DNA of 30,343 bases from a virus. The notes beneath the pieces were generated by a model. It had not been told where the DNA came from and made no database searches. It saw nothing but the letters and a program-made list of their open reading frames with translations. The DNA lies in IMG/VR virus record IMGVR_UViG_3300036845_000169, positions 1 through 30,343 of that record. The stretch is one strand, 5' to 3'. Numbering within the stretch: the first letter of the stretch is position 1; every line of letters starts with the position of its first letter. Both the position numbers and the translations under genes were made by a program. Below, piece by piece: positions 1-22,555 of the stretch.

Positions 1-1044
1 TATATGAGGAAGTTTCATATAAACACCGTCTGGATCTTCGACTGCGCCGCCAGCATTGAACGGATCGTACTCAATAGTCAGCTTTTTAGCCTCATTCAGC
101 TCAGCAAACTTCGATCCTGCGTGAGCACCGACGCCAATCGAGTCATAGGTGATCGAGGCGCCCTTGATCATCGCATAATTATACACTTTCGTGCTGCTCT
201 TCAGCAACTGATCCTCCAGCCCTTCGAAGTCTTCAGCATATTTCACGATATTTCCATGCGCTTCAACGAGCGCGTTCAAGTCCAACCCGTCATCGGCAAT
301 GTCGTATCCCACTCTATGCGGCCCTTCAGCGACCCATTTGCCGCCGCCAATCTTCTTGTGAGCGTCAATCGCAGAGAGAATGTACTCCAAAGAGATAACT
401 GACTTGTCTGCACCAGTCTTCGGGACGCCGCCATAGATGTGTTCTGCGCCTTTTGGATCTCGTTTGTAGTGATCTTTAATGACCTTCAGCATCGTCTTGG
501 ACAAAAATGGGTTGTTGTCCCAGTTGATCTGCATGTTAAGACAGTCTTCAGGCTTGTTCACTACGAAATACTGATACGCAAAGTCCATAATGTCATCTGG
601 GTTCCAAATCAGCCAGATTTCACTGTCCTCTTTACGGATGGTAGGCTCCAGAACTTCCCATTGATCTGGAGTCAGATAGTGCGCTTCTTCAAGCCACAAC
701 ACGTCTATGTCCTCGGTTGACTTGATTTCTTTCAGATTCCGGGCGATTCCATAGAACATAAACTCGCTGCCGGTCTCTTTATGTTCGATATAGGTGTTCG
801 CAATCTTGAATTCTGAGACGAATTCAGAGTTTTGAATCTTCTGCTTAATCAAAACATAGACTGATTCTTCAATACGGTTCTGGAATTGCCGCGCACATAA
901 GAAGCGCAGTGAGTAATTTGCCGCGAGATGTACTGCGTGTCCAGCTGCATCGTGTGATTTGCTTGATGCCCGGCCACCGAACAGGTTCTTGATTCGGCTG
1001 GGTGTACACCAGTATTCTCTCAGATATGGATTCAGCTGGTACAT
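1..1044 (-). CDS. terL: Terminase large subunit, N-terminal part (runs off the left edge)
   Basis: This is the packaging motor ATPase/nuclease that translocates DNA into the prohead. 348 codons are present and the C-terminus lies outside the window. Reading the minus strand, a Walker A-like GGRASSKS lies at residues 23-30, a Walker B VLWLEEA at about 115-121, a coupling-motif-like IWNPDD near 147-152, and the nuclease-domain opening GYDIADDG at about 246-253, where D248 is a likely metal ligand. The order matches PBSX/Terminase_3-type large terminases. ATG at 1044 is chosen because Walker A then falls at the usual distance from the N-terminus. No good Shine-Dalgarno is visible, and the frame stays open upstream for about 25 codons without an ATG, GTG or TTG. 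A TATAAT on the same strand at 1108-1103 probably drives it. Confidence 0.93.
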   Translation of the reverse strand, partial: MYQLNPYLREYWCTPSRIKNLFGGRASSKSHDAAGHAVHLAANYSLRFLCARQFQNRIEESVYVLIKQKIQNSEFVSEFKIANTYIEHKETGSEFMFYGIARNLKEIKSTEDIDVLWLEEAHYLTPDQWEVLEPTIRKEDSEIWLIWNPDDIMDFAYQYFVVNKPEDCLNMQINWDNNPFLSKTMLKVIKDHYKRDPKGAEHIYGGVPKTGADKSVISLEYILSAIDAHKKIGGGKWVAEGPHRVGYDIADDGLDLNALVEAHGNIVKYAEDFEGLEDQLLKSSTKVYNYAMIKGASITYDSIGVGAHAGSKFAELNEAKKLTIEYDPFNAGGAVEDPDGVYMKLPHI

Positions 1045-1102
1045 TTGACGGTGTGCAGCCGTGATTTTTGAAATGGGGCTTGTTAATTTGGCGCTGCACT
1101 CG

Positions 1103-1108
1103 ATTATA
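1103..1108 (-). promoter_or_regulatory. Putative -10 box of the terL promoter
   Basis: A perfect TATAAT lies on the minus strand, 59 bases upstream of the terL ATG. No TTGACA-like -35 is seen at 16-18 bp spacing, as for most promoters in this window. The rest of 1109-1244 holds no gene that I can support. Confidence 0.45.
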
Positions 1109-1259
1109 GCGTGGGATTACATTTTAGTCTAGGTGCTCTGTCCTTTTGTATTTAATTAGGGTCGGATCATTAAAACACGTGGACTAGACTATCTCGGCAG
1201 CGTTGCGGCCTGTGTGAAAGTAAACGAACGCTTACTTAAATGTGATTCGAAAGGGGAAC

Positions 1260-1300
1260 GTAATAAAAGAAAAGTCTATAGGGGAAAACCCCTATAGACT
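1260..1300 (-). terminator. Rho-independent terminator after the Ala/Glu-rich gene; left palindrome
   Basis: A 12-bp perfect stem (AGTCTATAGGGG at 1273-1284 with its complement at 1289-1300) closes an AAAA loop. On the minus strand it is followed by TTTTCTTTTATTA, the form of an intrinsic terminator for the 1889-1311 gene. The same palindrome recurs at 2039-2066 on the other side of the gene. Confidence 0.75.
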
Positions 1301-1310
1301 TCGGCGAACC

Positions 1311-1889
1311 TTACTCGGCGGTTACGATATCGAAACGAAAGGTAGTTCCTTCCTCGTTAACGAGCGTAAGCGTCCCTTTCTCCTTAAGTTCGAGGCGGTT
1401 CTTAGTAAATTTTCCCGCGCCGCCCGGTTTTCCGTTTTCGTCGAAAGCTTTCGGAAAGGAATCGTATCCGATAGGCGCGGCGCCGTTAACCGATAGGATA
1501 ACGCTATCGCGCTTAAGGCGAGCGGCGCGCGTCGCGGCGACTAGCCAAGAAGCTTTTACCCCTTCCGAGTTAGACTTACGTTCCGCTTTCGGCGCGTTCG
1601 AAGCGGCGAGGAACGCCTTAGCGAGTTCCGGGTTAGTCGTAAGACTAGCCACGAAAGCGGCGAGAACGACGCTTTCGGATTCCGGCGCGGCTTCTACGGC
1701 TTCCGGCGCGGCTTCTACGGCTTCCGGCGCGGCTTCGAAGTCCGACGCCTTAGGGAACGGGAAAGCGGCGAGCGGCGCGGCTTCTACGGCTTCCGGCGCG
1801 GCTTCTACGATAGCGAGAACGGGTTCTACCGGCGCGGCTTCTACGTTAGCGCGAACGGTACGGCGGGAATTACGGAGAGCGTTAGCCAT
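1311..1889 (-). CDS. Ala/Glu/Pro-rich protein of unknown function encoded without TG/CA
   Basis: 192 residues; the family is not recognised. The start is ATG 1889 with an AGGAG 8 nt upstream. The N-terminus is basic (residues 2-14), followed by a low-complexity region with repeated EAAPEAV units (about 15-70), then a predicted globular C-terminal part (about 75-192) that ends in short beta-like stretches (LELKEKGTLTLVNEEGTTF). There is no His, Gln, Cys or internal Met and only one Trp, because codons CAN, TGN and ATG would all create a TG or CA step. Codon boundaries obey the same rule: Ala before a G-initial codon is GCC or GCG, not GCT. It is followed by a strong terminator. It could be a virion-associated or DNA-binding protein, but the sequence alone does not say. 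Confidence 0.75.
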   Translation of the reverse strand: MANALRNSRRTVRANVEAAPVEPVLAIVEAAPEAVEAAPLAAFPFPKASDFEAAPEAVEAAPEAVEAAPESESVVLAAFVASLTTNPELAKAFLAASNAPKAERKSNSEGVKASWLVAATRAARLKRDSVILSVNGAAPIGYDSFPKAFDENGKPGGAGKFTKNRLELKEKGTLTLVNEEGTTFRFDIVTAE

Positions 1890-2038
1890 TTTTAAAACTC
1901 CTATTTCTATAAAAACGCTATAGGGGGAAACCCCGACTAGCGCGTTAGGCGTCGGGAGAAACCCGACTACTACCTAACTAACCCTACTTACTACTTACTA
2001 CCTAACCTAAGACTCTATTCTATAGGAACGAACGGGCG

Positions 2039-2066
2039 AATCTATAGGGAGAAACCCCTATAGACG
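2039..2066. repeat. Right copy of the CTATAGGG palindrome
   Basis: This 28-nt palindrome (stem TCTATAGGG at 2041-2049 pairing with 2056-2064) matches the one at 1273-1300 at 24 of 28 positions. The two bracket the 1311-1889 gene and its leader, giving a module of about 0.8 kb. Related CTATAGG words occur at 1917, 2019 and 2112, and a short hairpin GTCGGG/CCCGAC lies at 1951-1967. Confidence 0.8.
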
Positions 2067-2190
2067 AAACTCGGAAAGCGTAGTATAAACGCGCGCCTAC
2101 GCGCGGTCGTACTATAGGGGATCGTTCGATATCGAATCGTTCGGAGTCCGATCGTTCTAGGATCGTTCGATATCGAACGATAAACTGAGG

Positions 2191-2400
2191 AATGATTCGA
2201 CATCGAACGATCTGATGAGGAATGATTCGACATCGAATGATCTGATGAGGAATGATTCGACATCGAATGATCTGATGAGGAATGATTCGACATCGAATGA
2301 TCTGATGTCGAATGATCTGATGTCGAATGATCTGATGTCGAATGATCTGATGTCGAATGATCTGATGTCGAATGATCTGATGTCGAATGATCTGATGTCG
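2191..2400. repeat. Tandem repeat array, 30-bp then 15-bp units
   Basis: From 2191 to 2310, 30-bp units are built from two 15-bp halves, AATGATTCGACATCG and AATGATCTGATGAGG. From 2296 to 2400 there are seven perfect head-to-tail copies of AATGATCTGATGTCG. There are no spacers. The TTCGACATCGAA core is nearly palindromic and is related to TTCGATATCGAA at 2126 and 2166 in the neighbouring block. Because the period is a multiple of three and lacks stops, several frames on both strands stay open, but none has a convincing start. It may serve as an iteron array, packaging site or recombination substrate. Confidence 0.95.
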
Positions 2401-2705
2401 AACAGTCTGTGCCTGTGTCTGTGTGTCGTGGTGTCGTGGTGTCTGGTGTTAATGTGTCGGTGTCCGGCATGTTGACTGTGTCTGTGATGACTGTGCTGTG
2501 TGTCCGTCACCATCAGTGTCGCGGCATGGTGCCTATGTCTGTGTGGCAATGACCGACAGCCATGTGTCCGGCATCAGCAGCACAGACATATTGTCGGACA
2601 CGGCTGTGAGGCGGCTGGCGCGACATTGGGATGAAGAACACACACAGCATCAGCAACACAGGCATAGTGGCGGACACAGCGGCTGTCGGACACAGCAACA
2701 TCAGG
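2401..2705. other. TG/CA-saturated low-complexity tract
   Basis: No gene is supported here. The left half is rich in TGTG words and the right half in CACA words, so the strand asymmetry flips at about 2570. In both 2401-2460 and 2641-2700 I count 16-17 TG or CA steps per 60 bases, about twice chance. TGTCCG/CGGACA and TGTCGGACA words recur (2461, 2502, 2566, 2593, 2671, 2685) and reappear at 4300-4530. Confidence 0.8.
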
Positions 2706-2880
2706 GATTTGAAAGATTTGAATATTTGAAGGATTTGAATATTTGAAGATTTGAACATGTATTATTTGAATATTTGAGGATTTGAATATTTGAGGATTTG
2801 AATATTTGAAGATTTGAATATTTGATTATTTGAAGATTTGAACTTTTGAAGATTTGAACTTTTGAAGATTTGAAGATTTG
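2706..2880. repeat. AT-rich array of ATTTGAA-type units
   Basis: About twenty head-to-tail copies of short units of the form ATTTGAA, ATTTGAAG, ATTTGAATA and CTTTTGAAG, all in one orientation, fill this stretch. A second, more degenerate array in the same orientation lies at 4387-4478. It appears non-coding. It is a candidate for unwinding at an origin or for a structural role. Confidence 0.9.
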
Positions 2881-2937
2881 AGATTTCATAGTGTCGAACA
2901 CGCAGAAATACTTATTTACTTTTTAAGGGATTTCACT

Positions 2938-2967
2938 TATACTATATTTTTCGGCGGTACTCGCCGA
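2938..2967 (+). promoter_or_regulatory. Promoter -10 with 5'-terminal hairpin
   Basis: TATACT at 2938-2943 is followed by the stem TCGGCG (2951-2956) and CGCCGA (2962-2967). If the last T of the -10 is at -7, the transcript begins at about 2950, so this hairpin would sit at the very 5' end of the mRNA. Confidence 0.5.
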
Positions 2968-2992
2968 GTTGATAGAAATGGAGAGAATGGAA

Positions 2993-3319
2993 ATGGAAGC
3001 GAAACAGTTTTCACCGGCGGAAAAAGATGCGATCATGGCGAAGGTTGCCGCGGATTTGACTAGCGAAGCGGGCATCGATGCGCTCGTAGCGTATTATGAG
3101 TCGAATAAGTCGGTGTTTAAAGATTGGACCGATGAAGAGTTCAAAGAATATATGCGCGATTACGGCTTTATGGTAGTCGTGGGGGATGTATTCAATAAAT
3201 ACGAGAATGATCCCGGCGAGTTCTTCCACAATGACGAGATTATGTCTCGTTTCAATAAGATGCTCGATGCCGCCTTTGCGGCGGTGTATCCGAAGTTCCT
3301 CGTGAAGATCGGTAAGTGA
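2993..3319 (+). CDS. Conserved phage protein, paralogue of the 13943 gene
   Basis: 108 residues, helical and acidic, function unknown. It is clearly paralogous to the product of 13943-14263. Both begin with an FSxAxK-like motif (AKQFSPAEK and ESRFSQADK), have a central GDVFNKYENDPGEFF-type segment, and end PKFLVKI or PKFMRKI. That alignment and a GGAG at 2980-2983 favour ATG 2993 over upstream in-frame TTG/ATG codons at 2969, 2978 and 2987. It is the first gene of a four-gene plus-strand group sitting between the two terminase-associated minus genes. Confidence 0.85.
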   Translation: MEAKQFSPAEKDAIMAKVAADLTSEAGIDALVAYYESNKSVFKDWTDEEFKEYMRDYGFMVVVGDVFNKYENDPGEFFHNDEIMSRFNKMLDAAFAAVYPKFLVKIGK

Positions 3320-3325
3320 TCTGAT

Positions 3326-3345
3326 GCGCCGCCTTCGGGCGGTGC
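3326..3345 (+). other. Intergenic RNA hairpin with a UUCG tetraloop
   Basis: GCGCCGCC and GGCGGTGC form an 8-bp stem (one G-U) closed by a C(UUCG)G tetraloop just after the stop at 3319. No T-run follows, so it may protect or separate mRNA segments and is probably not an efficient terminator. Confidence 0.6.
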
Positions 3346-3370
3346 TTACCCTAATGATAGGAGAGCAGCA

Positions 3371-3655
3371 ATGAATTATCTTAAACATCCAGTTCACGCT
3401 TCATGGACCGCCCATTCCGCCCAAGTGAAGGAAATGATGGGTCTAGATCATAAAGCCCATTGGCCGGCTGAAGGAATGCCGCCGCGCCAGATTCAAGGTT
3501 TTGTGATTTGGGTCAATCCTCTCGAAGGTGACGCGCCGCGCAATGGCGCCGGCCGTGTATCCCGCCGCGCAAAGCATCGAGTCATGGCTCGGTGTCTCGT
3601 TTGCGGTAAGGAAATGAGCGCCGGTCGTACCGCACAACATAAGTGCGTCTCGTAA
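3371..3655 (+). CDS. Small protein with C-terminal CxxC zinc finger
   Basis: 94 residues, starting at ATG 3371 behind ATAGGAGAG. The C-terminus carries CLVCGKEM...HKC (C-x2-C-x12-H-x-C), a compact zinc-knuckle arrangement. The same design, CAFCGKRF...HWNSC, occurs in the 49-residue product of 12193-12342, so this phage has at least two related mini zinc fingers. The N-terminal two thirds resembles nothing I recognise. A nucleic-acid or protein-binding role is an inference from the finger alone. Confidence 0.8.
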   Translation: MNYLKHPVHASWTAHSAQVKEMMGLDHKAHWPAEGMPPRQIQGFVIWVNPLEGDAPRNGAGRVSRRAKHRVMARCLVCGKEMSAGRTAQHKCVS

Positions 3656-3668
3656 AAATTTCCCCGTT

Positions 3669-3702
3669 CGCCCGAAACTCACTTATAATAGAGTTTCGGG
3701 CG
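3669..3702 (+). promoter_or_regulatory. TATAAT in the loop of a 12-bp perfect inverted repeat
   Basis: CGCCCGAAACTC (3669-3680) and GAGTTTCGGGCG (3691-3702) are exact reverse complements around ACTTATAATA, so the -10 box (3684-3689) lies in the centre. On read-through RNA this would be a strong hairpin; as DNA it looks like a dyad operator overlapping the -10. It precedes the 3735 gene. Confidence 0.7.
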
Positions 3703-3734
3703 CTCCCGCCCGGTTCAACAGAATGAGGTATAGA

Positions 3735-3905
3735 ATGGATCAGAATGTATTTATCATCATGGCTGTCGGTCGCGGCGGGAAACACCGTCGGTATCACAAC
3801 GAGCATTTCGCGACACTGGGCGATGCGCTCGATTGGATCGACGACAATGAAGAAGAAGCAGACATCGACAATGTCGAACTCTATGTCGCAGAGGTGAGCA
3901 AGTGA
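3735..3905 (+). CDS. Small acidic phage protein
   Basis: 56 residues with no recognised family. ATG 3735 is preceded by TGAGG at 3724-3728, which favours it over ATG 3723. The layout is a hydrophobic beta-like start (VFIIMAV), a basic turn, then LGDALDWIDDN. The product of 4078-4257 has the same plan (FVYIVMGV then DAEAWIMNN), so the two are probably diverged duplicates. Its stop overlaps the GTG of the next gene. Confidence 0.7.
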   Translation: MDQNVFIIMAVGRGGKHRRYHNEHFATLGDALDWIDDNEEEADIDNVELYVAEVSK

Positions 3906-4081
3906 GAACACTAACGATGGCCTATATCAAAGGCCGCAAAGCGTTTCATGCGGAGACATTCGACAACATGCCCGTGTGCGAATATGAAGATGACTTCAGG
4001 CGCAATGAATTTCATGCAGGGTATGAAGAAGCGTTTCATGAGAACATGAAGGCAAACGAACACTGGGCGGAGCAGCAATGA
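3902..4081 (+). CDS. Small protein with an RMF-like residue pattern
   Basis: 59 residues from GTG 3902 (GTGA overlap with the previous stop) or 54 from ATG 3917. It contains IKGRKAF, a central NMPV, and HAGYEEAF. The spacing of G/A, P and GYxxA loosely recalls ribosome modulation factor and related phage mini-proteins, but the match is weak. It ends in ATGA overlap with the next gene, showing translational coupling. Confidence 0.65.
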   Translation: MRTLTMAYIKGRKAFHAETFDNMPVCEYEDDFRRNEFHAGYEEAFHENMKANEHWAEQQ

Positions 4082-4257
4082 GCTACGGTGATTTCGTCTA
4101 CATCGTCATGGGCGTTGTTGAAACGGGTGAACATTTCAGGATGTGCGATCGACAGTTCTACTTTGGTTCAGATGCGGAGGCCTGGATCATGAACAACGAG
4201 GATCAGTTTCCTGAGAGCCAATTGTACGTTGAAGTGCGCGATATGGTCGCTGACTAA
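4078..4257 (+). CDS. Small acidic phage protein, probable duplicate of the 3735 product
   Basis: 59 residues starting at ATG 4078, overlapping the previous TGA by ATGA. Function unknown. It shares with the 3735 gene the hydrophobic N-terminal strand, the central aromatic/basic section and an Asp-Ala-x-x-Trp-Ile helix. It is the last gene before a likely terminator at 4270. Confidence 0.68.
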   Translation: MSYGDFVYIVMGVVETGEHFRMCDRQFYFGSDAEAWIMNNEDQFPESQLYVEVRDMVAD

Positions 4258-4269
4258 CTGAGCGACTGA

Positions 4270-4297
4270 TGACGTTCCCGTGCGGGGGCGTCATATT
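4270..4297 (+). terminator. Probable intrinsic terminator
   Basis: TGACG..CCC and GGG..CGTCA form a stem around GTGC (4270-4293), followed by TATTT. It closes the 2993-4257 plus-strand group and separates it from the converging minus-strand genes. Confidence 0.55.
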
Positions 4298-4386
4298 TCA
4301 CGTGTCCGACACAGCTGGACATTGCTATGAGCGACATGCGTAACCAAAGTGTCCAAATCGTATTGAAGCTCATAATGTATCTCCCA

Positions 4387-4478
4387 AATTTGAACTTTTG
4401 AAGATTTGAACTTTTTGACTTTTGAACTTTTGGTTTTTTGAATTTTGAATTATTTGACTTTTCAGTTATTTGAGTTTG
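4387..4478. repeat. Second TTTGAA-type array
   Basis: Degenerate copies of ATTTGAA, CTTTTGAA and TTTTTGA run head to tail in the same orientation as the array at 2706-2880. Flanking sequence again contains TGTCCGACA and TGTCGGACA words (4303, 4481). The right end overlaps the last codons of the minus-strand gene 4462-4665. Confidence 0.8.
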
Positions 4479-4665
4479 CGTGTCGGACAAATTTCAGATT
4501 TGATGGTCGTAACCACTCGCCGCAAAGTGTCCGTTTATGAACGACAAATATAATCTGATTATTTGAGTTTGAGTAGTCAACCGTTATGACTTCGCATGGT
4601 CCGTCATCCAGTGTACCTGGGTAGATACACTGGACAATATCACCCTTCCTGAGTCGATGGTTCAT
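4462..4665 (-). CDS. Small beta-rich protein downstream of the probable small terminase
   Basis: 67 residues from ATG 4665, with GAGGA just upstream. It overlaps the end of the 5128-4640 gene by 26 bp, so it is probably co-translated. The sequence KGDIVQCIYPGTLDDGPCEVITVDYSN..IIFVV looks like a small SH3-like or KOW-like barrel (two hydrophobic strands around a Gly/Pro turn). Function unknown. Its final codons run into the TTTGAA-type array. Confidence 0.65.
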   Translation of the reverse strand: MNHRLRKGDIVQCIYPGTLDDGPCEVITVDYSNSNNQIIFVVHKRTLCGEWLRPSNLKFVRHANSNN

Positions 4666-5128
4666 CGTCCTCATCCAATGTTGGCATGATGCCTTCATTC
4701 TTGTAGAAGTCAGACAATGTCCGGCCAGCGCGTGTCTTACCAGCCTCATCCACCACTGTGATGCCGCACAGCAAGTTCAACTCTTTGATGGCGGACAGCC
4801 GCACTGCGTCCTTTGTGAAGATGTCGTGCATCAAAGTAAGCAGCTCATTGAGGGCCACCTTTGTGTTCCACATGTCCGCCACTTTGACTTCGTGTAGACG
4901 CTTTTTGAAACGCTCCTTGTAGTACGGATTGCGCTCCAAAGCCAACACACGTTCTGTGCGGTCATCATCTTCAAAGTTTGCTTTGCCGAAGACATCGCGG
5001 AACATTTTGCCGTCAGGCCGACCCAAGATGCGGCCTTCAACGTACAAATTGATGTAATCTCGGTATCCAATAGCAAACGTGTCTTCCTCAAAGAACTCGG
5101 GTGGGAGCTTTTCTGGGAATGGTTTCAT
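4640..5128 (-). CDS. Probable terminase small subunit
   Basis: 162 residues from ATG 5128. The frame could extend to a TTG at 5164, but that codon overlaps the -10 box, so 5128 is preferred. It is an acidic, helical protein with ALERNPYYKERF, an ALNELLTLMHD helix and a VRLSAIKELNLLCGIT segment, a pattern I associate with phage small terminase-like proteins that bind the packaging site. TerL lies on the same strand about 3.6 kb downstream. The call is inferred from pattern and context; there is no diagnostic motif. The gene is richer in TG/CA than its neighbours. Confidence 0.5.
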   Translation of the reverse strand: MKPFPEKLPPEFFEEDTFAIGYRDYINLYVEGRILGRPDGKMFRDVFGKANFEDDDRTERVLALERNPYYKERFKKRLHEVKVADMWNTKVALNELLTLMHDIFTKDAVRLSAIKELNLLCGITVVDEAGKTRAGRTLSDFYKNEGIMPTLDEDDEPSTQEG

Positions 5129-5163
5129 ATTTGCCACCACAACTTTTGGTTGGTCTTGAGGCA

Positions 5164-5169
5164 ATTATA
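5164..5169 (-). promoter_or_regulatory. Putative -10 box for the small-terminase operon
   Basis: A perfect TATAAT on the minus strand gives a predicted start near 5157 and a leader of about 29 nt before ATG 5128. No good -35 is present at normal spacing. Confidence 0.5.
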
Positions 5170-5597
5170 GCCTGAAACAATGTTGATGGCGACAAGTTTT
5201 TTTGTTGATGATCACATGCCGCAGCACATCCTTTGACCAGTTAGTTCTGGATAGTTTCAGTTAGTTTGTAAACAAGCGAACTAACGCCGCGGAACACCTG
5301 CCCCGTAAGGGTTCTACACGTTTTGGTTAGTTTGGTTAGTTTCTCTCCTTAACTCCACATAGGGAAAAAGATTAGTGTCCGTGAATATGTTCTCTATGTT
5401 TCATGTGAAGTCTATAAGTACTTGTACCTATTTACGGTAAGCAAACCGTAAGAAAAAGTTTTCTAAAAACCCATTTTTCGGTAGCGCGTAAGGGACCAAA
5501 CTCCTAATACTAACGAACCGTGAAAAATCCTTTAAAATCAAGTACTTACAGCGATAGTTCTAACTAACCGGCGATTTTCTAACTAACCATACATAAC
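5170..5597. other. Non-coding region with GTTAGTT repeats in both orientations; candidate origin
   Basis: No gene is seen in these 428 bp. AGTTAGTT or GGTTAGTTT occurs at 5239, 5259, 5325 and 5334; the complement AACTAAC occurs at 5279, 5562 and 5581, with a variant at 5511. There is also a hairpin TTACGGT/ACCGTAA (about 5431-5452) and AT-rich stretches at 5440-5480 and 5520-5545. It lies directly next to the replicative helicase gene and near the primase, the usual setting for an origin. The same repeats could instead be operators. Confidence 0.55.
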
Positions 5598-16083: not shown

Positions 16084-17223
16084 GTGAGTTCCAATCTCTT
16101 GAACCAATTGAAGGCAAACGGAAAGAAAGGTGGTGTCGTCAAGCTGCCGGTGAAAGATGCGTCGACATCAGAGCCTGAAGCGGCAGACGAATTCGATCCA
16201 GCCCCGATCACGAATGAAGATGATGCGGCGGCTGCGGAAGTCGCTGCGTCGGCGTCGATTACACAGGCCGTACAAGCCGCCACAAACGCTAAAGCGGCGG
16301 CGGACTCTACCGCCGAAAAAGACGCGGAACGGGCGCGAGAACGGGCCGAGAGCGACGCGCGGAAAGCCGCCGATAGGGAGATACGCGCTAAGGAACGGGA
16401 GGCGGAGAAAGCCGCTAAAGCCGCCGAGCGCGAACAAGCCGCTCAGAAGTCTGCGGTTGAGCGTGAAGAAGCCAACAAGAAGAAGGCAGCCGAGCGCGAA
16501 GCAAAGCGCATCGAGCGTGAGGCTGAGAAGGCCAAACAGCGCGCAGAGAAGGAAGCGGCACGCGGTGCTGGTTCTGAAGAAGCGAAAGCTGCGTTGGAAG
16601 CCGAACGTCAGAAGAAAGCTGCTGAGCGCGCCGCCGAACGTGAGTCGCGGAAAACTGCCCGATCCGACAAAGCCGCCGCTCACGCGAAACTCTGGAACGA
16701 TCGTCAGGACTTCCTGCGTGCTAGCGGCAATCGTCGCAGCAAGGCGACGCACTGCGTGTTCCGGGGCAATGGGTTCTCCATCCCCCAAACCATTTCGATC
16801 CGCGGCAAGGTGTTCGCGTGGATGAAGGAGAATTGCGAAGTCGGCGCGATGACGCCGATTGACGTGATCGCGGAAGGTTGTAAGCCGGTGTTGTACGGCG
16901 CAAACGTCCGTGGGTTCTTGTCCAAGTTGGAAGAATGCGACCACTTGGACTTGGTTACCATTGCTGTTGAACCGAAGTCTGAACCTCAACAAACGGAGCA
17001 AAAGATGGAACATGATCACGACGGTCAAGAACAAGAACAGGGTCAAGGCCACGAGGAACATCGCCACGATGAAGGCGGCCAGCGTCAAGAGCAAGGGCAT
17101 GAACACGAGCACCGTCACGAAGAAGGTCAGGAACAGGAGCAGGAACAGGAAGGCGATGACGACGATCGTCACAACCACGAAGATGACGACGACGACAAGG
17201 AGCAAGAGCAAGAACAGGACTAA
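16084..17223 (+). CDS. Long coiled-coil protein with a His/Glu/Asp-rich tail
   Basis: 379 residues from GTG 16084 (AGAGGA upstream); an in-frame ATG at 16024 has no ribosome site. Three parts are seen: a long charged Ala/Lys/Glu/Arg coiled coil (about 50-205, TolA-like composition), a compact domain (about 206-300, with WNDRQDFLRASGNRRS, FSIPQTISIRGKVFAWM and GANVRGFLSKLEE), and a tail (309-379) made of Glu, Gln, His, Asp with 11 His in 71 residues. The tail looks metal-binding or intrinsically disordered. The middle domain may be a small winged-helix-like unit. It has its own terminator downstream and may be a virion or scaffold-like component. Confidence 0.82.
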   Translation: MSSNLLNQLKANGKKGGVVKLPVKDASTSEPEAADEFDPAPITNEDDAAAAEVAASASITQAVQAATNAKAAADSTAEKDAERARERAESDARKAADREIRAKEREAEKAAKAAEREQAAQKSAVEREEANKKKAAEREAKRIEREAEKAKQRAEKEAARGAGSEEAKAALEAERQKKAAERAAERESRKTARSDKAAAHAKLWNDRQDFLRASGNRRSKATHCVFRGNGFSIPQTISIRGKVFAWMKENCEVGAMTPIDVIAEGCKPVLYGANVRGFLSKLEECDHLDLVTIAVEPKSEPQQTEQKMEHDHDGQEQEQGQGHEEHRHDEGGQRQEQGHEHEHRHEEGQEQEQEQEGDDDDRHNHEDDDDDKEQEQEQD

Positions 17224-17334: not shown

Positions 17335-18309
17335 ATGAACATGAATGAAGTCAACATTATCGGCGCAGGGTTTGCTGGACTTATCACGGCGTGTGCGATA
17401 CCAAAAGCAACAATATTTGAAGCTGGATCATATAATGAGAACCATAAGGCACTTTTGAGATTTCGTGATAAGTCAGTCGCAGATTTGACTGGCATCCCAT
17501 TCAGAGAAGTAACAGTCCACAAAGAGATTTGCCACAAAGATATAATCTATCACGAATGCAACATCTCTATTGCGAATTGTTATTCCAACAAAGTATCCGG
17601 CGTTTTTGAAGACAGAAGCATCTGGGATTTGAAGACCGTCAATCGGTACATTGCGCCGCCCGACTTCTATGATCAGTTGGTTGACCGTCATACGAATCGA
17701 ATCTGCTGGAACGCAGAGATTGTTGCGGATACAATCGGCAGCGGCAATACGATGAAGATTATCAATACCGCGCCGCTCCCAGTTATTATGGCGGCGTGCG
17801 GCCTGGATTCCAGCAGATTTGAATTCAAGAGTAGCGGCATTAAGGTTGATCGATATGAATTGCCGCAAACAAACGTTTACCAAACGATTTATTTCCCTGA
17901 CGAAGATTTGAGGGTCTATCGGGCATCCATTACTGGGAATGTTCTGATCGTAGAGTCCATCAGCGAAAGAGATCATCTTGATAGATGTTGGGGCGCGAAT
18001 CGTTATGACCCGGTGCGAGAAATTAGAATCATTCTGATGGCGTTCGGGCTGGATTGCGTTTATGACCCGAGCGATTTACCGCAGCCTAAGACCGTCACTC
18101 AGAAACACGGCAAAATTATCGCTTTATCTAAACAGGCGCGAGAGGCTATACTATATAAACTAACGCGAGAGTATAACGTGTTTAGTATCGGCAGGTTTGC
18201 TACTTGGAGGAATATCCTGCTCGATGACGTCGTGAAAGATATCGAAGTCGTCAAGCGTTTAATGGATTCTTCCGACTATGGCCGCGAATTGGTTTTAATG
18301 AATAGATAG
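17335..18309 (+). CDS. FAD/NAD(P)-binding Rossmann-fold oxidoreductase-like protein
   Basis: 324 residues. The N-terminus VNIIGAGFAGLITACAI is a dinucleotide-binding beta-alpha-beta unit (GxGxxG at 10-15), with IFEAG placing Glu 29 to hold the FAD ribose. The C-terminal GRFATWRNILLDDVVKDI resembles the second flavin-binding segment of UDP-galactopyranose mutase or monooxygenase-like proteins. The length is below typical full-size flavoenzymes. Known phage relatives have no settled role; sugar, nucleotide or surface modification are possible given the glycosyltransferase and ThyX further down. ATG 17341 is an alternative start. Confidence 0.75.
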   Translation: MNMNEVNIIGAGFAGLITACAIPKATIFEAGSYNENHKALLRFRDKSVADLTGIPFREVTVHKEICHKDIIYHECNISIANCYSNKVSGVFEDRSIWDLKTVNRYIAPPDFYDQLVDRHTNRICWNAEIVADTIGSGNTMKIINTAPLPVIMAACGLDSSRFEFKSSGIKVDRYELPQTNVYQTIYFPDEDLRVYRASITGNVLIVESISERDHLDRCWGANRYDPVREIRIILMAFGLDCVYDPSDLPQPKTVTQKHGKIIALSKQAREAILYKLTREYNVFSIGRFATWRNILLDDVVKDIEVVKRLMDSSDYGRELVLMNR

Positions 18310-18550: not shown

Positions 18551-19132
18551 ATGACCCCGCAGCTCACCCCGATAAGCAGCTTGCCTATCTACATCTTTGA
18601 TCTGGACGGCACGATGGCTCTTAATTCCCATCGTCGCCACGAAGTTGAAGCGCCTGAATGTCCGAAGTGTGGCGGCTCTGGTCGCGATGTCGGAATGCAT
18701 CATAATTACGACTGCGGCATGTGTAATGGTAAAGGCAAAGACCCGAAGTTCAAGCCGGACTGGTCTGCGTTCTACCAGAAGTGTATTCACGACGCTCCGA
18801 ACTGGCCTGTTATCGGAACATTCCTCCAACTGTACAGCTGCGGGTGTGACTGCCGGATTTGGTCCGGTCGATCTGACGAAGTTCAAGCGCAGACCATCGA
18901 ATGGCTCCATGTCTATCTGAGCCTTCTTCCTCACCATATAGCAAACATTTTAAAGATGCGACCATCGGAAGACTTCACTCCCGATGATCAGCTGAAGCGC
19001 AAATGGCTCCACTTGATGGATCCAAAAGACAGGGCGCGGCTGGCCGCAGTGTTTGACGACCGCAATAAGGTCGTTGATATGTGGCGGGCCGAAAATGTAA
19101 CTTGCTTCCAAGTAGCACCAGGGGATTTTTGA
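18551..19132 (+). CDS. HAD-superfamily phosphatase with an inserted DnaJ-type zinc finger
   Basis: 193 residues. HAD motifs: IYIFDLDGT (13-21, nucleophile D17 and acid D19), WSGRSDE (104-110, motif II), KRKW (149-152, candidate motif III Lys) and FDDRNKVVDMW (168-178, acidic motif IV). Between motifs I and II lies CPKCGGSG ... CGMCNGKGK (37-62), a pair of CxxCxGxG modules like the zinc finger of DnaJ. The HAD core resembles the 3'-phosphatase part of phage polynucleotide kinase, which works on RNA or DNA ends. It has no kinase domain. Confidence 0.82.
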   Translation: MTPQLTPISSLPIYIFDLDGTMALNSHRRHEVEAPECPKCGGSGRDVGMHHNYDCGMCNGKGKDPKFKPDWSAFYQKCIHDAPNWPVIGTFLQLYSCGCDCRIWSGRSDEVQAQTIEWLHVYLSLLPHHIANILKMRPSEDFTPDDQLKRKWLHLMDPKDRARLAAVFDDRNKVVDMWRAENVTCFQVAPGDF

Positions 19133-19903: not shown

Positions 19904-20707
19904 ATGAAAGTAACCCTCATCAGCTATACGCCGAATGCTCTGGACATCCTAGTAGGCACGAAAACCACTCGTTTGCGCGGCAAGACGCCGGACCAGATGA
20001 CTCCTGAAGAAAAGCAGGAACACTGGGAGTACATGCAGGACACGATCAAGAGCAGTTTCGAGTTTGTCGATTATATTTTCAGGATTGAAGGTGTTTCAAA
20101 GAATTTTACGCATCAACTCGTTAGAACGCGCACAGGAAGCTACCAACAAGAGGCGAGCCGAGCGATTGATCTTAGCGACAATAAAACGGTCATCCCGGAC
20201 GCGCTTAACGAGTATCAAAGAGAACTCTTTATTTCTGGTGTGGAAGACGCAAACGCCCATTACAAAGCGCTTCTGTCCGCCGGAGTTCATCTTCAAGACG
20301 CTCGCGGCATTCTCGCGTCGAACATGGAGACGAAGATCACCGTCAAGTTCAACCTTCGGACGATGCATGATACGTCCAAGCTTCGACTCTGCGCCCGCGC
20401 CCAGGGTGAGTATCAGAAGGTATTCCGGGCGATGCGAGAGGAAGTGATCAAGGTTCATCCCTGGGCCGAAGATGCTATCCAAGTCCATTGCGTCCAGGTC
20501 GGCACCTGCGCTTTCCCGCGTTGGGGCGGAGCAATCATGTCGCCTCCGCCCATCGGTGATGAAAAGCCGAATGTCGTTTATCAGTGCCCGCATTACGATC
20601 CGCGCATGAATCTGAACGAACTGCGCGCAGAAACAAAAATCAAGTTCTGGTCTCATAAAGAGATCGCTGAAGCAAACCCCGTCGCCACGGACGGAAAGGC
20701 CCAATAA
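19904..20707 (+). CDS. thyX: Flavin-dependent thymidylate synthase, variant motif
   Basis: 267 residues. ThyX makes dTMP from dUMP using FAD, methylene-THF and NADPH. The active-site segment QLVRTRTGSYQQEASR (71-86) replaces the usual RHR...S by RTR...S, and FNLRTMHDTSKLRLCARAQGEYQKV matches the conserved second half (Arg-Ala-Gln-x-Glu substrate contact). The R-T-R form occurs in some phage homologues. Downstream come genes for a small protein, a glycosyltransferase and nucleotide-pool enzymes, and DNA polymerase later, consistent with supplying thymidylate for replication. Confidence 0.87.
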   Translation: MKVTLISYTPNALDILVGTKTTRLRGKTPDQMTPEEKQEHWEYMQDTIKSSFEFVDYIFRIEGVSKNFTHQLVRTRTGSYQQEASRAIDLSDNKTVIPDALNEYQRELFISGVEDANAHYKALLSAGVHLQDARGILASNMETKITVKFNLRTMHDTSKLRLCARAQGEYQKVFRAMREEVIKVHPWAEDAIQVHCVQVGTCAFPRWGGAIMSPPPIGDEKPNVVYQCPHYDPRMNLNELRAETKIKFWSHKEIAEANPVATDGKAQ

Positions 20708-20923: not shown

Positions 20924-21733
20924 ATGAAGCCTTCCTTTTCGCTGATCTTACCAATTAACAAAAAGGTCAACGCATTTAGCGACATCTTCTCGCTTTCGTC
21001 TTTGTTGGAGCTTAACAAGCTGAACGAAATCGTTGATGTCGCTGTTTTGATCGCCGCGCAGGGCAAATTTGATGTCGAAGCGCGAGAGCGCGCACATTTA
21101 CTTATTGATTCTGTCGGGATGGAAGCGCGTATAATCGCAGTTCCTGAAGAGAATCCGTGTCGTATGGCATATCTGCGGCAGACAGCCGCCCTGCTTAAAC
21201 CAGAATCAGACTTCTATATGTTCGTTGACGACGACTTTGAGTTCGTTAACGGATCAGCCGCCAAGTACGCCGCCGCGCTCGACTACCTGCTCGATAATGA
21301 TACTTGCGGAGTCGTTGGTAGTTATGGTCACTTCGGGTCAGTCTCATACGGCGATGAAATTCGACCGGATGCGATTGGTAAGATCGCTGCGACGGCAAAG
21401 GGATTGATCCTACGTAATGTTTTCGAGGGTCATCTTTTCCCAGACGAAGTTCTGGCGATGCCTGGACCGATGGAAGAAATGGCGGCAATCATCTGGCTGA
21501 ATATTCACGGATATTACTACGCCAAACAATTCAAAATCCCGACCAAAAATAAAGGAAAGACCAAACGGGTTAGCAACGAAGTTCACGAGGGAGATAATCA
21601 ACTTCACAGCGCAGATTTGGCGGCAAAGCACATTCGAGCGTGGATTCGAAAAGTGACTAACCGCCCGTATTATTTGTATGGCGATCCGATTCTGAACCTT
21701 GGTATGGGCTTTAAACCAAAAGGGAAACAGTAA
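20924..21733 (+). CDS. Glycosyltransferase-like protein (GT-A, DxD type)
   Basis: 269 residues. The N-terminal strand SFSLILPINKK and the MFVDDDFEF segment (99-107, Asp triad at 102-104 that binds the nucleotide-sugar metal) fit the GT-A/GT2 fold. The second half is less clear (KTKRVSNEVHEGDN, RPYYLYGDP). Phage members modify phage DNA, tail or host surface; this one sits beside ThyX and a DUF6378-like gene, so DNA-base glucosylation is possible but unproven. It overlaps the next gene by one base (TAATG). Confidence 0.75.
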   Translation: MKPSFSLILPINKKVNAFSDIFSLSSLLELNKLNEIVDVAVLIAAQGKFDVEARERAHLLIDSVGMEARIIAVPEENPCRMAYLRQTAALLKPESDFYMFVDDDFEFVNGSAAKYAAALDYLLDNDTCGVVGSYGHFGSVSYGDEIRPDAIGKIAATAKGLILRNVFEGHLFPDEVLAMPGPMEEMAAIIWLNIHGYYYAKQFKIPTKNKGKTKRVSNEVHEGDNQLHSADLAAKHIRAWIRKVTNRPYYLYGDPILNLGMGFKPKGKQ

Positions 21734-22057: not shown

Positions 22058-22555
22058 ATGGAAAAAGAGAACGATCTGAAATTCGAGATTCATCAGATTT
22101 CTTTGAACCCGCGCAATCCAGATAAGGCGCGTGAGTTGCTGTTTGACCTCGGACTGACCGACTGGTTTGTCGATACTATCTCATCGCACGGATCGGTGTA
22201 CGGGAAAGACGGATGCGAAAATCGGTCGGTGGTTTACTCGACCTACGATGCCGATGATTGCAGCTTGACCAGAACTCCGGTTGATTTGGAGATTATGAAG
22301 TCGCTGTCCGGCGAAAACTGGATGGACCGAAAGAGCGCAAGCGTCAGCCATCTGGGTATGTACGTTACAGAAGAGCAGCTTGACCGATTCCGTATCTATT
22401 TCAACGGCAAGTGGATCGCCGTCGCTCAAGAAATTTTCACGGATTACCATAGTAATACTCATATCAACGAGAAGTACCGATTCCATACGGTGACGTTTGA
22501 TACGCGAGACATCCTCGGCGTCGATCTCATGTTCATCGTTCGGATGGAGCTGTGA
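22058..22555 (+). CDS. Phage protein of unknown function
   Basis: 165 residues from ATG 22058 (GAGGAG upstream). It opens with FEIHQISLNPRNPDKARELLFDLGLTDWFVD, recalling the NPRN-type helix of small metal-binding folds, followed by a strand-rich second half (WIAVAQEIF, YRFHTVTFD, MFIVRMEL). I cannot place it in a family. Confidence 0.7.
   Translation: MEKENDLKFEIHQISLNPRNPDKARELLFDLGLTDWFVDTISSHGSVYGKDGCENRSVVYSTYDADDCSLTRTPVDLEIMKSLSGENWMDRKSASVSHLGMYVTEEQLDRFRIYFNGKWIAVAQEIFTDYHSNTHINEKYRFHTVTFDTRDILGVDLMFIVRMEL

Follow-up and report, generated by a model that had tools for sequence, protein, structure and literature searches.

Dinucleotide-specific protection of phage DNA has a precedent in hypermodified thymidine at TG or TC steps (PMC6449724). 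Phage T5 is known to resist restriction (PMC8594841), and GATC purging has been described in enterobacterial phages, where it is tied to mismatch repair and where phiX174 has no GATC (PMC5014478). In the BASEL data, Wifcevirus was insensitive to the tested RM systems with no known protection mechanism, and was very sensitive to EcoP1_I; EcoCFT_II, for which the number of sites is similar, had no such effect (PMC11990801). The EcoP1I site is AGACC (PMC2962900), which contains neither TG nor CA.

The locus described here is a block almost free of TG and CA (hereafter the void) in a 30-kb IMG/VR fragment obtained by metagenome assembly (IMGVR_UViG_3300036845_000169, 30,343 nucleotides, the whole of which is called the window). 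Both genome ends are missing from the contig. Its DnaE is 61-66% identical to those of Pluto, XcP1, MyoSmar, and PB1 over about 97-100% of the length, and the order of replication and terminase genes is common to the window and PB1-like phages. DnaE and synteny place the window, a genome fragment, among the PB1-like phages (Lindbergviridae type), for which a formal criterion based on 12 proteins also exists (PMC12451628). The features discussed below are as follows.

1..1044, minus strand: terminase large subunit, running off the contig and flanking the void (sequence comparison)
1045..5597, no strand: probable position of the DTR, from synteny with Mansfield, MTx, and Kyle only
1272..1305, minus strand: perfect hairpin followed by a T-run, just downstream of the void gene (-22.8 kcal/mol, z -6.9)
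1311..1889, minus strand: void gene, 192 aa, C-terminal half resembling phrog_4730 (sequence comparison)
1917..2065, minus strand: upstream region of the void gene, with further CTATAGGG...CCCTATAG-type hairpins (sequence and folding)
2119..2180, no strand: inside repeat copies (GGATCGTTCGATATCGAA...), without TG/CA (sequence)
2186..2402, no strand: outside copies of the void-edge repeat, with TG and CA (sequence)
4640..5164, minus strand: relative of a Mansfield gene annotated as terminase small subunit (sequence comparison)
17335..18309, plus strand: UDP-galactopyranose-mutase-like flavoprotein family, phrog_4828 (sequence comparison)
18551..19132, plus strand: HAD/PNKP-type phosphatase (sequence comparison)
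19904..20707, plus strand: ThyX thymidylate synthase (sequence comparison)
20924..21733, plus strand: DDD-motif protein with no family or structure match (motif by eye)
22061..22555, plus strand: VOC-fold (glyoxalase/epimerase superfamily) protein (predicted fold and matches)

An earlier sequence-only reading of this DNA had reported no TG and three CA steps in the 941 bp at 1245..2185, and a direct recount gave exactly these figures. The TG-free run extends from 1244 to 2186, and CA occurs only at 1546, 1650, and 1887. That reading correctly assigned two of the three CA steps to the complements of the start ATG and the Trp codon; the third (1650), opposite a GTG valine codon, could have been avoided. 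The void has a TG/CA depletion score of 96.1 (3 observed vs. 111.8 expected), and the next depleted segment scores 16.4 among the window segments listed. No similar depletion is found elsewhere in the window, where the lowest TG+CA count among 277 other 941-bp tiles is 87, and the minimum in 20,000 mononucleotide shuffles of the void was 86. When the void gene was recoded synonymously with the codon choice of the phage, it had 56.9 TG/CA steps on average and never fewer than 38, against the 3 observed. CG and TA are enriched (odds 1.90 and 1.58), in agreement with their reported abundance.

The void covers the gene, the terminator-like hairpin, the upstream region of the gene, and part of a repeat array. 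The earlier proposal that the constraint acts on DNA is borne out by this extent over gene and flanks on both strands, and by the void of phage Mansfield, which takes in genes on both strands. Avoidance of UG/CA at the RNA level was rejected, since the void affects both strands and non-coding DNA, and two unrelated RNA targets would be needed. The void protein contains no Cys, His, or Gln and has one Met and one Trp; phrog_4730 is a phage family without assigned function, with relatives in XcP1, Kyle, and MTx. No relatives of the void protein were found in IMG/VR, and none of the window DNA among phages. An RBS (AGGAG) can be read before the ATG, and the hairpin at 1272..1305 appears intrinsic-terminator-like, made without TG or CA. 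The right edge of the void is sharp and is straddled by a tandem repeat, GGATCGTTCGATATCGAACGA inside versus GGAATGATTCGACATCGAATGA outside. The two sets of copies diverge at the positions where TG or CA occurs outside, and the outside set provides a natural control for the edge. Elsewhere in the window, small genes are flanked on both sides by arrays of an 8-nt TTTGAA-type repeat (2701-2900 and 4380-4480).

No account of such a void turned up in the literature searched. It recurs in three other genera, Wifcevirus, Myosmarvirus, and Kylevirus; carriers besides the window are Mansfield, MTx, MyoSmar, TropicalSun, SMP, PA1, Kyle, Bas98, and ECML-117. The Mansfield void (1540-3491) has 64 TG/CA steps observed versus 279 expected (score 128.6, next segment 9.3), and that of MTx (1757-3371) has 41 versus 230 (score 129.7, next segment 8.8); outside the void, TG/CA segments of MTx, Mansfield, Bas98, and ECML-117 reach 10.3 at most. 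MTx is a Serratia phage, Mansfield an E. coli phage, Kyle a Pantoea phage, and the void-less Gekk3-15 an Aeromonas phage. Homologous regions give a mixed answer: several relatives share the void, and none is present in PB1, Pluto, WTB, Gekk3-15, T5, and lambda, in the stretches of XcP1 read, or in the wild relatives sampled. In the DnaE tree, in which many forks are open, the void-bearing phages formed one clade in 0% of bootstrap trees.

This recurrence bears on whether local mutational bias, chance, or an assembly artefact produced the void. The window comes from a metagenome assembly, and replacements of TG/CA by CG and TA are frequent in the voids, as such a bias might produce. However, the void recurs in isolates sequenced by different groups, its probability at the window's own TG/CA rate is about 1e-22, and it is retained between relatives at 76-88% DNA identity, with TG/CA positions swapped for many dinucleotides, transversions included. 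These alternatives are already largely refuted and we assign them negligible probability; the past mutational process suggested by the sequence-only reading is disfavoured on the same grounds. Another compositional pattern is separate from the void. Strong depletion of AA, AT, GA, and TT near the Dda-like helicase gene extends over a biased TolA-like coding gene (window 16100-17220, PB1 50646-51181, Mansfield 53347-54076) and was rejected as void-related, reflecting coding bias.

In the four phages with a known DTR (MTx, MyoSmar, Mansfield, and Kyle), the void occupies the right half of this ~3.6-kb repeat, and the left half has ordinary TG/CA. DTRs of 3.6-3.7 kb are annotated by PhageTerm in the MTx, MyoSmar, and Mansfield records (1-3566 in MTx, 1-3673 in Mansfield), and the Kyle DTR of 3603 bp was verified directly in sequence. 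The Mansfield gene annotated as terminase small subunit sits inside its DTR, and the window's own DTR may lie at 1045..5597. Since the void sits in the terminal repeat, the packaging or replication role raised earlier is kept as an option, in which the void would act in cis in packaging, DTR formation, or replication, for example as a primase-start-free zone or as unmodified DNA for terminase. The void is limited to phages with an annotated or verified DTR, their close kin, and the window, and in MTx, Mansfield, and Kyle its right edge falls about 60-200 bp short of the end of the DTR, consistent with this possibility. Specificity of dinucleotide size is typical of primases, which also counts in its favour. 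However, the void leaves the left half of the DTR uncovered and takes in promoters and entire genes, the 10.2-kb DTR of T5 is void-less, and a primase alone would not predict the coupling to restriction sites described below. We consider a cis-acting site unlikely. A model of TG-versus-CA strand asymmetry (a primase tail) was rejected, as the flanking asymmetry is base composition (odds near 1) and low odds occur in the void only. PB1 has a region (58517-59605) that is TG-rich and CA-poor and then CA-rich and TG-poor, between helicase and terminase-small-like genes; this asymmetry is mainly base composition as well (odds mostly near 1) and perhaps marks an origin.

Outside the void, survival of restriction sites is coupled to TG/CA. 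We compared the fraction of sites overlapped by a TG/CA step with the expectation of a first-order model, using G..C tetramer controls and T5 and lambda as guards against faults of that model. In the void-bearing enterobacterial phages and Gekk3-15, 94-100% of GATC sites are overlapped versus 44-53% expected: 109/112 in Mansfield (P 4e-26), 200/212 in MTx (P 6e-46), 108/109 in Bas98, 111/113 in ECML-117, and, in one genome stretch each, 41/41 in Kyle and 34/34 in PA1. Gekk3-15 shows the coupling (127/130, P 4e-32) though it lacks a void. The controls T5 (77/153, 50%) and lambda (60/116, 52%) do not show it, nine other G..C tetramers in the coupled phages have overlaps of 0.36-0.71, and the enrichment is limited to the two overlapping offsets (0.69/0.73 vs. 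0.146), with none at any other position. Overlap in the void-less PB1 (57%), Pluto (51%), and WTB (38%) is moderately above their own expectations, indicating that a small codon effect exists. The coupling extends to EcoRI sites (16/16, 16/18, and 16/17 in three Wifceviruses, including all 16 in Mansfield; 14/15 in Gekk3-15) and to EcoRV sites (5/5, 3/3, and 9/9 in the same three, including all 5 in Mansfield). The three Wifcevirus genomes are near copies, which leaves Wifcevirus, Myosmarvirus, Kylevirus, and Gekk3-15 as independent lines. A general palindrome test was weakly positive and was set aside, as the signal resides in specific motifs. BamHI sites (GGATCC) number zero in Mansfield, MTx, and PB1, where 14-19 are expected.

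GATC totals amount to about one-third to one-half of expectation in Wifcevirus, Kyle, PA1, and Gekk3-15, as if unprotected sites had been purged, and are only modestly reduced in MTx; MutH may be the agent. The window's own genome, perhaps for want of host pressure, lacks near-complete coupling (GATC 123/207 vs. 0.44 expected, EcoRI 8/18, EcoRV 6/11); void-less relatives have similar GATC values. Five wild contigs (L104, L109, L116, L117, and L120) show the opposite of the enterobacterial phages, with GATC overlap far below expectation (e.g., 9/80 vs. 0.68), and L109 and L120 are also nearly without GCGC.

Escape from a DNA-acting enzyme that needs TG/CA had been among the causes first suggested. 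A TG/CA-centred process is indeed the best explanation, but simple nuclease escape is disfavoured because TG/CA coincides with survival of GATC, EcoRI, and EcoRV sites outside the void, where it therefore looks protected or modified. A variant of the nuclease idea is self-immunity, in which a phage nuclease would cut unmodified TG/CA (e.g., in host DNA), modification would shield the genome, and the void, not modifiable in time, would have to lack the step. The near-zero tolerance of TG (0 in 941 bp) agrees with a lethal cut, Wifcevirus is reported to lyse fast (PMC11990801), and the TG steps left in voids, some of them forced ATG start codons, favour RTGT and avoid YTGA (TTGA and CTGA at 0.30-0.35 of expected), which fits an enzyme preference. 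However, no such nuclease was identified, and the left DTR half, with ordinary TG/CA, is not exempt, which makes self-immunity improbable. We consider it more improbable still that many motifs were purged at once from first-entering DNA, ahead of anti-restriction proteins and with no modification. The Mansfield DTR lacks EcoRI, EcoRV, EcoKI, and EcoBI sites and has sites for EcoP1I, which is effective in vivo, as such avoidance might leave it, yet neither the purge of a single dinucleotide nor the link of site survival outside the DTR to TG/CA overlap would be explained.

The explanation we prefer is that PB1-like void carriers have an uncharacterised protection, most simply base modification, at TG/CA through most of the genome, and that the void is purged of the target step so as to stay unmodified. 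It would then be an early region at the genome end, transcribed by host RNA polymerase as the DNA enters, on the assumption that the right end enters first. Voids of the relatives hold small genes near one genome end, and TTTACT-N16/17-TATAAT promoters are present in those of Mansfield (two), Kyle (four), MTx (one), and Bas98 (two); none was found in the window's void. These promoters appear to be strong, host-type sigma-70 promoters, and their -35 box, TTTACT, is without TG and CA, both of which occur in the consensus TTGACA. TG/CA-free promoters together with whole TG/CA-free genes near the genome end favour an unmodified region of first transcription. The overlapping step puts the G:C pair of TG/CA inside the site, which is consistent with more than one modified base, and the YTGA avoidance perhaps reflects the preference of the enzyme concerned. 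Several points run counter to this explanation: the remainder of the genome has to be transcribed as well, despite its presumed modification, Gekk3-15 has the coupling without a void, and the window combines a promoter-less void with incomplete coupling. We give the explanation as a whole about an even chance. The fuller account, in which several genera independently keep a TG/CA-free terminal launch zone with rewritten promoters and proteins, and carry elsewhere an undescribed TG/CA modification possibly made by the SDR-VOC enzymes introduced below, is more tentative and somewhat doubtful.

For the window's own phage, kinship and candidate genes suggest modification. The VOC-fold protein (predicted fold pLDDT 90, matching methylmalonyl-CoA epimerases) is a candidate part of a modification module. 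It is present in the void-bearing phages, Carpasinavirus, Pluto, and Gekk3-15, and no match from Pseudomonas or Burkholderia phages was named. An SDR gene is found in 80/80 wild loci (L058-L137), adjoining the VOC gene wherever its position shows, and SDR and VOC form a widespread linked pair beside ThyX, HAD, and DnaE genes. No SDR relative was detected in the window, where the DDD-motif protein, by eye possibly a GT-A-like glycosyltransferase, lies near where most relatives have the SDR gene. The phrog_4828 flavoprotein is conserved upstream of the SDR-VOC pair, void-less phages included. Since many wild phages that show neither void nor coupling carry the pair too, these enzymes are unproven as modifiers, and their role is a lead. 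Equating the void with the module was rejected, as the module is present in Gekk3-15, Pluto, the XcP1 stretches, and many wild phages, all of them void-less.

The Wifcevirus restriction profile fits the reading of TG/CA as protected; about half of the EcoP1I sites in Wifcevirus are overlapped by TG/CA, and 3-5 lie within the void. If correct, the proposed modification would explain that profile and bring to light a hidden chemistry of DNA protection in a phage family that is used therapeutically and represented in open phage collections. It would also show that removal of a single dinucleotide can keep part of a genome epigenetically blank. Asking whether sites survive according to the dinucleotides that overlap them provides a sequence-only method to detect unknown DNA modifications.

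Among known systems, thymidine hypermodification of the M6/ViI type is similar in that restriction resistance follows TG (or TC) in the sites, a dinucleotide-specific protection. In contrast, TG and TC are involved there, whereas TG/CA alone is apparent in the void-bearing phages, and the available text reports no modification-free zone in those systems (PMC6449724). No 5hmdU-kinase pathway was identified, none of the window genes scanned being named for a step such as the 5hmdU DNA kinase. The terminal repeat of T5 resembles those described here in being large, and holds pre-early genes; unlike them, this first-step-transfer repeat has no TG/CA void, and GATC flanks in T5 are neutral. N4, with 1 GATC in 50 kb, purges host-enzyme targets, as do the phages here. 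In contrast to GATC avoidance in N4 and phiX174, however, sites overlapped by TG/CA escape the purge described here, and TG/CA itself has been removed from a separate zone.
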